NCBI RefSeq assembly: GCF_016595415.1
Contig: NZ_JAENIO010000029.1
Coordinates: 1-52,192, forward strand
Origin: Roseibacillus ishigakijimensis
GTDB taxonomy: Bacteria; Verrucomicrobiota; Verrucomicrobiia; Verrucomicrobiales; Akkermansiaceae
Length of the DNA: 52,192 bases
Direction of reading: 5' to 3'
The notes beneath the pieces are model-generated. The model saw only the letters and a list, made by a program, of their open reading frames with translations, searched no databases and was not told the origin of the DNA. The stretch's first letter is position 1; every line of letters starts with the position of its first letter. The translations under genes were made by a program, and so were the position numbers. Shown here one piece after another: positions 11,889 to 19,696 of the stretch.

Positions 11889-12728
11889 ATGTCTCTGAAA
11901 ACATTCAAGCCCATCACTCCGACCAACCGGTATAAGGAACACCCCGATTTTGCGGAGGTGACCAAGTCCACTCCGGAAAAAAGCCTGACCCGTCCTCTCA
12001 AGAAGTCGGGCGGCCGCAACAATCAGGGTCGCATCACCTGCCGTCACATCGGTGGAGGTCATAAGCGCAAGTATCGCGTGATCGACTTCAAGCGCTCCAA
12101 GCGCGACATCGCTGCGACCGTGGTGGGCATCGAGTATGATCCCAACCGCACCTGCCGCATCGCTCTCCTGGAATATAGCGACGGTGAAAAAGCCTACATT
12201 CTGGCCCCCGTGGGTTTGACCGACGGTGCCAAGGTGGAAGCTGGTGAAAACGCCGCGCCCAAGCCCGGCAACGCTATGCCCCTGAGCAAAGTGCCCCTTG
12301 GAACCGCTGTTCACAACATCGAGCTTCAGCCCGGTGGCGGTGGCAAAGTGGCCCGCTCCGCTGGCCAGCAAGCGATTCTTTCCAACCGGGAAGGGGATTC
12401 CGCCCTTGTGCGCATGCCTTCCGGCGAGATCCGCCGCTTCAATGCCAACTGCTACTGCACCATTGGCCAAGTCGGCAACCGCGACCACATGAACGAAGTG
12501 TCCGGGAAAGCGGGCCGCAGCCGCTGGCAGGGCGTTCGCCCCACCGTCCGCGGGATGTGCATGAACCCCGTCGACCACCCCAACGGTGGTGGTGAGGGTA
12601 AGTCCAAGTCCGGTGGTGGTCGTCAGCACTTGAAGTCTCCCTGGGGTCACACCAAGGGTCAAAAGACTCGCAAGAAGAAGAAGCCTTCCAACACCTTCAT
12701 CGTGGAAAGCCGCAAGAAGAAGCGCTAA
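11889..12728 (+). CDS. rplB: 50S ribosomal protein L2
   Basis: 279 residues, near the usual 275. L2 is needed for subunit joining and peptidyl transfer. The C-terminal [18 protein letters not shown] motif contains the conserved histidine. The tail ends in a lysine-rich segment. A possible GAG lies only 2 bp ahead of the ATG, so initiation is probably not Shine-Dalgarno driven. Confidence 0.98.
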
Positions 12729-12758
12729 TCCCCGCAACCACCCGAATACCTGTTTACT

Positions 12759-13028
12759 ATGCCACGTTCACTGAAAAAAGGACCCTTCGTTGACCAAAAG
12801 CTGCTCGCCAAAATCGATGCTGCGGTTGAGAAAAACGACAAGAAGCCGATCAAGACCTGGAGCCGTCGCTCCATGATCACACCCGACTTCGTCGGCCTCA
12901 CCTTCTCGGTCCACAATGGAAAAACCTTCCTGCCCGTTCTCGTCACCGAAAACATGGTGGGTCACAAGTTGGGGGAATTCGCCCCCTCCAAGAACTTCAA
13001 GGCCCACGGTGGGGTCGGGAAGAAGTAA
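12759..13028 (+). CDS. rpsS: 30S ribosomal protein S19
   Basis: 89 residues ([19 protein letters not shown]), normal length; 30S head protein that contacts S13 and the A-site tRNA. The next gene should be rplV, but an unrelated exported protein gene is placed in between, 41 bp downstream. Confidence 0.98.
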
Positions 13029-13069
13029 GAACTGACTCCGCACTGACTCGTCTCCAACCGCTTTCAGCA

Positions 13070-13771
13070 ATGATTACTCTCGCTCGTTCATCCTTTCTCG
13101 CCGCCGCCCTCTTCGGGTCGGCGCTGGGTGCGGGTGCGCAGAGCGGAGATTTGCGAAGCGAGCTCCTCCGCCTTCGCCGCGAGAACGCCAACCTGAACGA
13201 AAGTCTGGTGGCCGCCAATCGCCGGGCGGATGAGAGCGAGGCCAAACTCAAGGATATCAAGCTCCGCCTTGAAGCCATGGGATCCGGCCTCCTCGACGGG
13301 GGAGAAGAGCGCCTGGTGAAGGCAGTCGCCGATCTGGAAGTGATGTCCCGCAAGTTGAGGGAGATGGAGGCCACCGCGCTCTCTCTTTCCTCCAGTGTGC
13401 AGAACTACCTCGCCACCGCCATCGCCGCCGATCCGGAAGCCCGCCTCGAAGTGGAAACCCGTTTGCGCGACCTCGATACCGCCATTGGCTTGCGGGAAGC
13501 TCCCCGGCAAGATCGTCAGCTGGGCAATCTCCAGCAAGCGGCCGTGGTCAGCGTCGATAGCGAATCGGGAATCGTCGTAGTCAATGTGGGAAATAAGGAA
13601 GACGCAGTGACCGGAATGGCCTTCGAGGTCTTTCGCAACGAGGTGAAAGTGGCCGATGCCCTCATCGCCGATACCCGCGAAGATGTCAGTGCCCTGGTAA
13701 TTACAAATTTAGAAAACGAAGAGAATCCCGTGCGCAGAGGCGACCGGGTCTCATTTAAACGCAGCAATTAA
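13070..13771 (+). CDS. Exported coiled-coil protein inserted between rpsS and rplV
   Basis: 233 residues. Residues 1-23 (MITLARSSFLAAALFGSALG...AQ) form a signal peptide with a likely cleavage at AGA-QS. Residues about 25-115 are heptad-rich (LRRENANLNESLVAANRRADE), a coiled coil. The C-terminal part (about 155-231: AAVVSVDSESGIVVVNVGN...VRRGDRVSF) is beta-rich and resembles small barrel domains such as the FlgT C-terminal type. It is on the ribosomal strand, 41 bp after rpsS and 12 bp before rplV, so it is surely cotranscribed. It is no ribosomal protein: the leader sends it out of the cytoplasm. Function unknown; an envelope role is inferred. Confidence 0.88.
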   Translation: MITLARSSFLAAALFGSALGAGAQSGDLRSELLRLRRENANLNESLVAANRRADESEAKLKDIKLRLEAMGSGLLDGGEERLVKAVADLEVMSRKLREMEATALSLSSSVQNYLATAIAADPEARLEVETRLRDLDTAIGLREAPRQDRQLGNLQQAAVVSVDSESGIVVVNVGNKEDAVTGMAFEVFRNEVKVADALIADTREDVSALVITNLENEENPVRRGDRVSFKRSN

Positions 13772-13783
13772 GGAAGAAGAATC

Positions 13784-14470
13784 ATGGAAGTCCGCGCGAT
13801 ACATAAATATGCGAGAATCTCGGCCAAGAAGGCCCGGGACGTGGCTCGGGAAATTCAGGGTCTCCCTGTCTCCGACGCTCTCGACACCTTGGCCTACACG
13901 CCCAAGAAGGCTGCTTTCCTCATTGGAAAGACCCTCAAAAGCGCCGTCGCCAATGCCGAAAACAATCACGAAATGGTCGCTGAGACCATGGTGGTGAAGG
14001 AAGCCCACGTCACAGACGGGCCCACCTCCCGCCGCTTCAAGCCCCGCGCCCGTGGTTCTGCTGCCGCGATTCGCAAGCGCACCAGCCACATCTACATCAC
14101 CCTCGCCGAGAGCGAGGAAGAAGAAGTCGCGCCTAAGCCCCGCCGCGCCGCCAAGAAGGCCGCTCCCCAGCAGCCCGCTGCGGAAGAAGCAGCCCCCGCT
14201 GCTGCCGAGGTGGACAAGGAAAAGCTGGGTCTCGTCTATGACGAAGCGCCCGCCGAAAGCGACGACCTCAAGAAAATCTCCGGTGTGGGCCCCGCTTTGG
14301 AAGCTAAATTGCACGGCTTTGGGGTTTACACTTACCAGCAAATCATCGATTGGACGCCCGAGAACATCGCGGCCTTCGATGAATTGCTTTCCTTCAAGGG
14401 TCGCATCGAGCGCGACAACTGGCAGGACCAAGCCAAGACATTGCAATCCGAAAAAGGAGGCGAAGCCTAA
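13784..14470 (+). CDS. rplV: 50S ribosomal protein L22 with C-terminal helix-hairpin-helix extension
   Basis: 228 residues against the usual 110-120. Residues 1-110 are normal L22 (MEVRAIHKYARISAKKARDV; the tunnel beta-hairpin near RRFKPRARGSAAAIRKRT). Residues about 112-160 are an Ala/Pro/Glu/Lys linker, and about 162-222 form a helix-hairpin-helix domain (DDLKKISGVGPALEAKLHGF...FKGRIERDNW) of the kind fused to L21 in some Alphaproteobacteria. The L22 C-terminus faces the outside of the 50S near the tunnel exit side, so the HhH could project from the ribosome. The start has AAGGAAGAAG upstream. Confidence 0.96.
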   Translation: MEVRAIHKYARISAKKARDVAREIQGLPVSDALDTLAYTPKKAAFLIGKTLKSAVANAENNHEMVAETMVVKEAHVTDGPTSRRFKPRARGSAAAIRKRTSHIYITLAESEEEEVAPKPRRAAKKAAPQQPAAEEAAPAAAEVDKEKLGLVYDEAPAESDDLKKISGVGPALEAKLHGFGVYTYQQIIDWTPENIAAFDELLSFKGRIERDNWQDQAKTLQSEKGGEA

Positions 14471-14512: not shown

Positions 14513-15289
14513 ATGGGACAGAAAGTCAATCCAGTGGGTTTCCGACTCGCTTTCAACCGCGACTGGCGGTCGAAGTGGTATGCCGAAGGTGACGATTACA
14601 CCAAGAAGCTTCACGAAGACATCCGCGTGCGCAAATACATCAAAGATCGCCTTCAGTTTGCCGCCATTTCCAAGGTGGTCATTGAGCGCGCCTGGAACAG
14701 CGTGCGGGTCACCATCCACACCTCTCGCCCTGGCCTCGTCATTGGCAAGCGTGGTTCCGAGATCGAAACCATGACCAAGGACATCACCAAGATTTGCAAA
14801 GGTGCCCAGGTCAAGATTGACATCGTCGAGATCCGCCAGCCGGAGCTTGATGCCCAGCTCGTCTGCGAAAATATCGCCGTGCAATTGGAGCGCCGGATCA
14901 GCTTCCGCCGGGCCATGAAGCGCGCGGTGCAAACAGCGATGGACTTCGGTGCCGACGGCATTCGCGTCCGTTGTGGTGGTCGTCTCGGCGGAGCGGATAT
15001 TGCCCGCGCCGAGCAGTACCGCCAGGGCAAGGTGCCCCTTCAGACCCTGCGGGTGCCTATCGACTACGGCTTTGCAGAAGCCAGCACCGTTTACGGCATC
15101 ATCGGTGTCAAGTGCTGGCTCAACGTGAAAGAAGAGAAGCTGAAAGGCGGCGGAGGCGGCCAACAGCGTCGTGGAGGTGGTCGTCGCGACAACCGGGGCG
15201 GGGGAGACCGTCGCGGTGGCGGTGACCGTCGTGGAGGCGGTGACAACCGGGGTGGTGGCGACAATCGCGGCGGCGGTAATCGCGGCTAA
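14513..15289 (+). CDS. rpsC: 30S ribosomal protein S3 with RGG-rich C-terminal tail
   Basis: 258 residues. Residues 1-210 are normal S3 ([20 protein letters not shown] domain with [12 protein letters not shown]). Residues about 211-258 are a low-complexity tail of GGG-DRR and GGG-DNR repeats. S3 lines the mRNA entry channel and has helicase activity with S4 and S5. RGG/GGR tails bind RNA without strict sequence and can phase separate; here the function is inferred. A similar tract occurs at the N-terminus of S5 in the same cluster. Confidence 0.97.
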
Positions 15290-19009: not shown

Positions 19010-19696
19010 ATGTCAGAAGATAACGACAAAAAAACAGAAGCCGCATCGAAGGAGGTCACCTCGTCGCAAGGCGGGACCCCAGCCGCACCCCGCGGTGATC
19101 GACGCGCCCCTGAACGTCGCGATGACAATCGTGGAGGCGGAAACCGAGGCGGTGGAGATCGCCGGGGAGGTGGACGCCGTGACGACCGCGGAGGCCGTGG
19201 TCGCCGCCAGGAAGAAGAGGATGATGGCTTGACCGAAAAAGTGGTCTTCATCAACCGTTGTGCCAAGGTGGTCAAGGGTGGTCGCCGCTTCAGCTTCTCT
19301 GCCCTCGTGGTCTGTGGTGATACCGCCGGTCAAGTCGGTTACGGCTTCGGTAAGGCCAATGAGGTCGCCGAGTGCATCAAGAAGGCCAGCGAAAGCGCCA
19401 AGAAGAATTTGCAGAAGGTGAAGCTCGATGGGGATTCCATTCCTCACGAAAGCTACGCGGAATTCAGCGGAGGCAAAGTGTTGTTGCGTCCTGCTTCTCC
19501 CGGAACCGGCGTCATCGCGGGTGGGGGAGTGCGTGCCGTCTGCGAAGCGGTCGGCATCAAGGATGTCCTTGGCAAGTCCCTTGGCTCCAATAACCACGCC
19601 AACGTGGTGAAAGCCACTCTGAAGGCTCTTTCCCAGCTCCGGAATCGCGACGAGGTCTATGCTTTGCGCGGCAAGAAGAAGGCAAAGGCCATTTAA
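19010..19696 (+). CDS. rpsE: 30S ribosomal protein S5 with RGG-rich N-terminal extension
   Basis: 228 residues against the usual 165. Residues 1-27 are polar, residues about 28-66 are an RGG/DRRGGG low-complexity tract, then a short acidic QEEEDDG. The normal S5 core starts near residue 75 ([21 protein letters not shown]), with the fidelity loop and the C-terminal ribosomal S5 D2-like fold. S5 is next to S3 at the mRNA entry site, and S3 here has a matching tail. Downstream, rpmD (L30) is missing; rplO follows directly. Confidence 0.97.

Follow-up and report, generated by a model that had tools for sequence, protein, structure and literature searches.

The S10-type operon of Roseibacillus ishigakijimensis holds, between rpsS and rplV, a gene whose product carries an export signal and is predicted to fold into a helical rod and a small beta-barrel, and this gene is retained next to rplV throughout the order, in many genomes of the class and beyond it in the phylum Verrucomicrobiota. 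Few strings of genes are as well conserved among bacteria as the S10 operon, and rpsS-rplV is a highly conserved pair within it. The observation, first made on a single strain, is hereby confirmed and widened to the phylum. The analysis further revealed a point that the preliminary description had missed, namely that rplV is a closer link of the inserted gene than rpsS, because the gene often stays by rplV where the two ribosomal genes are separated. The reading that we favour, to which we give a probability of about 45%, is that the gene encodes a secreted coiled-coil/barrel scaffold of the envelope and that the rplV half of the operon dictates its synthesis.

The inserted gene and its conservation in the order

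The window, by which we mean the whole analysed stretch of 52,192 nucleotides, contains an S10-type operon in the order fusA, rpsJ, rplC, rplD, rplW, rplB, rpsS, inserted gene, rplV, rpsC, rplP, rpmC and on; most of these names were read from the sequence, and those of rpsS and rplV come from family matches. The inserted open reading frame runs on the forward strand from an ATG at position 13070 to a TAA ending at 13771 and encodes 233 amino acids. It is preceded on the same strand by rpsS, encoding ribosomal protein S19 (12759-13028; TIGR01050, 137.9 bits, and PF00203), and followed by its usual downstream partner rplV, which encodes a ribosomal protein L22 extended at its C terminus (13784-14470, forward strand; TIGR01044, 122.1 bits). 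The spacers are 41 bp (13029-13069) and 12 bp (13772-13783) long, as the preliminary description had it. A scan of positions 12600 to 14000, the 41-bp spacer included, revealed nothing that resembles a promoter or terminator; the scan is weak, since shuffled sequences led us to expect 0.2 promoters and 2.1 terminators. The protein has no fitting family in Pfam (best E 0.13), no match in NCBIfam at E ≤ 10 and no match to a ribosomal-protein family in either collection, and an Rfam search of the window gave 0 matches at the gathering threshold.

The long C-terminal extension of the window RplV (13784-14470) gives a weak match to a helix-hairpin-helix family (PF14520, E 1.7e-4, below the cut-off), and RplV exceeds 150 amino acids from the match start in 25 of 56 loci of the order, a tally in which one locus (L043) was miscounted. 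By eye, RpsC (14513-15289) has a Gly/Arg-rich C-terminal tail with GGGDRR-type repeats, and RpsE (19010-19696) has a stretch similar to that tail in its N-terminal part.

A match to the inserted gene is present in 57 of the 58 genomes sampled from the order, Verrucomicrobiales, our own included, and in 32 of 32 genera; none of the listed matches has an internal stop. The sole genome with no match (G030) has an assembly that also lacks rplV. For the 56 other genomes with a match we retrieved some 2 kb of flanking DNA to either side. In all 57 genomes rplV follows the gene directly and in the same orientation, and rpsS directly precedes the gene in 56 of them (55 of 56 when our own is set aside); in the remaining locus (L064) the contig extends only 230 bp upstream and no rpsS is visible there. 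The distance from the rpsS stop to the start of the inserted gene has a median of 25 nt (n = 55, range 11 to 88), and the stop of the inserted gene is a median of 19 nt away from the start of rplV (n = 55, range 4 to 89).

Identities to the window protein in the alignment of the 57 orthologues (A1) range from 76% down to 19%. A pattern search with an alignment of five sequences found 6 loci in named genomes, the nearest being that of Roseibacillus persicicus, 80% identical in its best segment. Distances between the proteins follow those between the RplB and RpsC proteins of the same loci (Spearman 0.62 over 55 loci; none of 2000 permutations was as high), and the inserted gene has therefore been inherited with the operon. 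It is under purifying selection, with dN/dS values against three congeners of 0.184, 0.109 and 0.204; the part encoding the signal changes fastest (pN 0.44-0.49). The occurrence in 57 of 58 genomes, the intact frames and the dN/dS values of 0.109-0.204 rule out a chance open reading frame. They likewise refute a strain-specific or decaying insertion, in favour of which nothing was found and to which we assign practically no probability.

Distribution in the phylum and linkage to rplV

With a profile built from the 57 sequences, 149 of 188 genomes of the class gave a match at E ≤ 0.001, paralogues included. The 150 listed match rows come from 123 genomes, 29 of them with no listed place for rpsS; among the 94 genomes with both places listed, 89 have a match no more than 700 bp past rpsS and on the same strand, one of them (G212) being counted through its second-best row. 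These 89 genomes span at least 29 of the 53 sampled families. In the other five (G087, G105, G127, G139 and G147) the listed match lies only elsewhere. In the 118 class genomes that have both rpsS and rplV on one contig (61 genomes with one listed place were left out), the gap between them measures at least 550 bp in 71, 250-550 bp in 17 and less than 250 bp in 30.

Twenty class loci were scanned for what the gap contains, which was a long form of the gene in 5, a short form in 10 and no match in 5. The short forms, of 111-127 amino acids, consist of a signal-like N terminus and the barrel and have no helical rod; some families carry the short form and some have no gene. Three of the loci with no match (L150-L152) have small gaps. 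The gaps of the other two, 579 bp in L146 (genome G114) and 331 bp in L149 (genome G081), have no match to the first profile and may hold a diverged form or another gene.

In the phylum, the first profile matched 97 of 194 genomes at E ≤ 1e-6 and a wider profile (A4) 152 of 194 at E ≤ 0.01, with paralogues included in both counts. Eighteen of the best-scoring matches from other classes were fetched; 16 lie directly before rplV, 12 of these with rpsS directly upstream; the other two lie elsewhere, as do two further matches from class genomes G139 and G212. Outside the class, 34 genomes have no listed rplV and 12 no listed rpsS, and matches were listed down to about E 3e-12, so that weaker ones are possible (G240 has such a weaker match beside rplV). 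With that reach, 37 of these genomes have rpsS and rplV together, at least 16 with the gene and 21 with no listed gene and gaps below 250 bp; one of the 21 has a match elsewhere.

In 45 sampled genomes outside the class rpsS and rplV are apart, some possibly through contig breaks where the two genes are on different contigs. At least 25 of the 45 have the gene immediately ahead of rplV, a listed match lies elsewhere in 8, and none is listed in 12. In five genomes (G235, G262, G286, G309 and G331) rpsS and rplV are far apart on one contig, and in three of these (G286, G309 and G331) the gene precedes rplV; G312 is alike, with rpsS apart and the gene adjoining rplV. The DNA upstream of the inserted gene varies among the split operons, and since the gene often stays by rplV there, its usual partner is rplV. 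The tie is strong in the order and is often seen outside it as well. Because the match lies away from rplV in 8 of these 45 genomes and only elsewhere in 5 of the 94 class genomes, the linkage is not universal, or else paralogues blur the count. The function is, moreover, dispensable or replaceable in genomes that do not have the gene, namely 30 of the 118 class genomes and, among the matches listed, 21 of the 37 linked genomes outside the class, all with gaps below 250 bp.

Two genes resembling tatA and tatC upstream of the inserted gene were considered as a general feature of the split operons and rejected: they were recognised by eye in only 5 of 24 loci, all of one genus (L167, L174, L175, L179 and L180), and two loci (L169 and L186) reach little upstream. 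The window genome itself contains two tandem matches to paralogues in another locus (L158, on contig G000:C55, at about 10.3-11.8 kb of the locus; E 4.4e-6 and 0.0047), near genes that by eye resemble nusA, infB and rbfA; pairs of neighbouring matches are present in G245 and G267 as well.

Export signal, predicted fold and codon use

A simple hydropathy score found a hydrophobic, signal-like N terminus in 56 of the 57 orthologues of the order, the window protein included, compared with 1 of 277 N termini of ribosomal proteins encoded in the same loci, which supports the export signal that had been proposed for this protein. In the window protein the signal-like part covers residues 1-23 (13070-13138); its hydrophobic 12-mer has a mean of 1.88 with one net positive charge up to it, and judged by its sequence it resembles a cleavable signal peptide. 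In the phylum set, 41 of 47 sequences pass. Among the six that fail, L028, the same sequence as the failure in the order, is borderline with a weaker core, L123, L124, L153 and L157 were scored from late starts and their upstream frames read by eye as signals or anchors, and L130 has no signal-like N terminus. The kind of anchor differs by eye between relatives, with signal peptides, membrane anchors (L118, L123 and L124) and lipobox-like sites (L131 and L133; L052 also scores lipobox-like). What the relatives share is that the barrel is delivered across the inner membrane.

The AlphaFold2 model of the whole chain, computed with the 57 sequences of A1, has a mean pLDDT of 86.6 and a pTM of 0.50. 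It predicts helices at residues 24-71 (13139-13282), 78-115 (13301-13414) and 122-139 (13433-13486), followed by strands at residues 157-229 (13538-13756) with a pLDDT of about 93-97. The first helix ends at a conserved LEALG-type motif, the glycine of which (G71) is kept in 90% or more of A1; G174 and G182 are invariant in the 57 orthologues and again in A4. The coiled coil and small beta domain proposed earlier thus take the form, in the model, of a helical rod and a small beta-barrel. In a Foldseek search the closest structures were 8z5n (E 6.5e-5) and 3w1e, which is FlgT (E 2.2e-4). VIA-align superposed the two with Z 11.9 (rmsd 1.7 over 75 residues) and Z 11.3 (rmsd 1.8 over 77), respectively, and barrels of F1/V1-ATPases came next among the rows listed, nearly as high with Z 10.5 to 10.1. 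The model of a short form has the same barrel (mean pLDDT 80.9), with Z 10.3 for 8z5n, Z 10.0 for 3w1e and the F1 rows tied; Foldseek found nothing for it at E 0.001, with 3w1e at E 3.2e-3 and the MreC structure 7eft at E 5.5e-3. Sequence matches in the PDB were weak (best E 0.0032) and lay for the most part in the helices. The likeness of the predicted barrels would mark a shared fold and is no proof of a shared function. The rod cannot be the core function, because the short forms of 111-127 amino acids do not have it.

The level of this protein may track ribosome production, as the preliminary description also expected. The codon adaptation index (CAI) of the inserted gene is 0.607, the leave-one-out mean of the ribosomal genes is 0.686 (minimum 0.572), and the mean of a background of the 66 longest open reading frames of the window and of loci L158, L194 and L195, which may hold antisense frames, is 0.568, placing the inserted gene at the 67th percentile. 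Its codon use therefore does not mark it as a very highly expressed gene; a ribosome-like codon bias was rejected, the value being near the background average, and this average bias counts against strong expression.

In genome G154, which we take for the type strain of A. muciniphila, the inserted gene sits in the same place. The available parts of an A. muciniphila transcriptome article report the ribosomal cluster Amuc_0294-0308 as up together on GlcNAc versus mucin (PMC11480725), and those of another give some tags of this cluster as up-regulated ribosomal genes (PMC13335675). Going by its position, the inserted gene would be one of these tags. Among the open-licence papers listed, judged by titles and the beginnings of abstracts, we found no earlier report of a gene inserted at the rpsS-rplV junction in the phylum.

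Possible role and comparison with known systems

In the reading that we favour, the product of the inserted gene would be an exported envelope protein, held by a signal peptide here and by a membrane anchor or lipoprotein signal in some relatives. A helical rod, which probably oligomerises, would carry a barrel head of the FlgT-C/MreC type beyond the inner membrane, and the protein may serve in the periplasm as a scaffold or connector, much as MreC or FlgT do. The gene would be an old one in Verrucomicrobiota, vertically inherited in its place before rplV, and would be transcribed with the S10 operon or with its rplV-rpsC half. This place may tie the dose of the protein to the output of ribosomes and hence to the rate of envelope growth. 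Points against this reading, besides the near-average codon use, the genomes that do not have the gene, the matches away from rplV and the short forms with no rod, are that the predicted barrel is of a widespread kind, F1-ATPase barrels scoring little below FlgT, and that the genome encodes a separate MreC (contig C88, 128.5 bits), the sole match over the PF04085 cut-off in a search of our own genome, which gave none over the cut-off at the inserted gene.

The place of the gene might also have no regulatory meaning. An envelope gene with a role unrelated to ribosomes could have landed before rplV in an ancestor and have been retained as a frozen accident, most excisions being harmful to rplV. 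The average codon bias, the many genomes of the phylum that do not have the gene and the related barrel proteins elsewhere in the genome agree with this. Against it speaks a position directly before rplV in 57 of 57 order genomes with a match and in at least 25 of the 45 genomes in which rpsS and rplV are apart; moreover, the losses indicate that excision is tolerated, and retention therefore needs a reason. We regard such an accident as rather unlikely, at somewhat better than one chance in four. A cytoplasmic ribosomal protein or assembly factor, for which only the place in the operon speaks, is highly improbable given the export signal in 56 of 57 orthologues, the lipobox-like and membrane-anchor N termini of relatives and a best fold match to the periplasmic FlgT.

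A different use of the position would be that of a leader or sensor cistron, the translation and export of which link the production of L22 and S3 with Sec capacity, or anchor the operon mRNA at the membrane, in a SecM-like or transertion-like way. The exported product is encoded immediately before rplV (median 19 nt, 55 loci), in some split operons no ribosomal gene precedes the inserted gene, and Shine-Dalgarno (SD)-like motifs are found before rplV in 5 of 55 loci compared with 44 of 55 before rplP, which would suit coupling. However, such motifs are equally rare before rpsC (0 of 56) and rpsS (1 of 55), so that rplV is not special and its lack of a motif was rejected as a sign of coupling. 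The C termini of the orthologues, moreover, have no conserved arrest-like sequence; their tails vary and the end belongs to a folded barrel, and short forms and losses are tolerated. We consider this leader function improbable. Slightly less so, and still doubtful, is the broader idea that Verrucomicrobiota have a built-in link between ribosome and envelope, in which L22 and S3 synthesis goes with an exported protein that either scales a scaffold or reports export capacity.

It is unexpected to meet a gene for an exported protein within the S10 operon in at least 29 of the 53 families sampled from the class, and again beside rplV in other classes, and in many genomes the gene keeps its place by rplV even after the operon has split. 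It can serve as a marker for the evolution of the S10 operon. The place beside rplV may mean that supply of the protein is tied to ribosome production, and if its dose does follow ribosome synthesis, this would be a simple genetic means of matching part of the envelope to growth rate. According to the parts of the article available, the essential genome of Verrucomicrobium spinosum has been determined by TraDIS, with 100 of 618 essential proteins being of unknown function; those parts make no mention of a gene inserted at the rpsS-rplV junction. Targeted mutagenesis is at hand in this species, which makes the role of the gene testable now (PMC12283558).

The closest structural match is the C-terminal domain of FlgT (PF16538; 3w1e and 8z5n), the barrel of which superposes on that of the window protein. 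FlgT is periplasmic and the window protein is predicted to lie beyond the inner membrane. PF16538 gave no match to the window protein at E ≤ 10 and weak matches to 8 of the 57 orthologues (best E 0.0089). FlgT has further N-terminal and middle globular domains besides this barrel; these are absent from the window protein, in which residues 24-139 are mostly predicted helix, and the S10 operon is a context unlike that of FlgT. According to the part of the source available, FlgT belongs to the H ring of Vibrio flagellar motors (PMC7693769).

The window protein resembles MreC (PF04085) in its layout of an N-terminal membrane-targeting segment, a coiled coil and a beta domain on the outer side. 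Weak Foldseek matches connect MreC with the window protein (2j5u, E 6.1e-3) and with the short form (7eft, E 5.5e-3), and two NCBIfam MreC models each match 5 of the 57 orthologues (best E 0.0012). MreC consists of a membrane-targeting segment, a coiled coil and two beta domains, whereas the window protein has one (residues 157-229), and mreC is usually found in an mreB-mreC-mreD context instead of the S10 operon. The N-terminal beta-barrel of F1/V1-ATPases has the same arrangement of strands (Z about 10). That barrel is a domain of a cytoplasmic ATPase, and the window protein has no nucleotide-binding domain.

Monitors of the SecM type are similar in that an exported product is encoded just upstream of the gene concerned, here 12 bp before rplV (median 19 nt over 55 loci); they differ in the C-terminal arrest sequence, which is not conserved among the variable tails of the orthologues. 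Lastly, the accessible part of a study of the PVC group describes CT421.2 as a conserved signature protein of the group, of about 53 to more than 80 amino acids and present in all four phyla (PMC3444138). Like it, the window protein is a conserved PVC protein of unassigned function, and it differs in having 233 amino acids and an export signal. The family described here is, by these comparisons, a new one of exported rod-and-barrel proteins that contain a known kind of domain.
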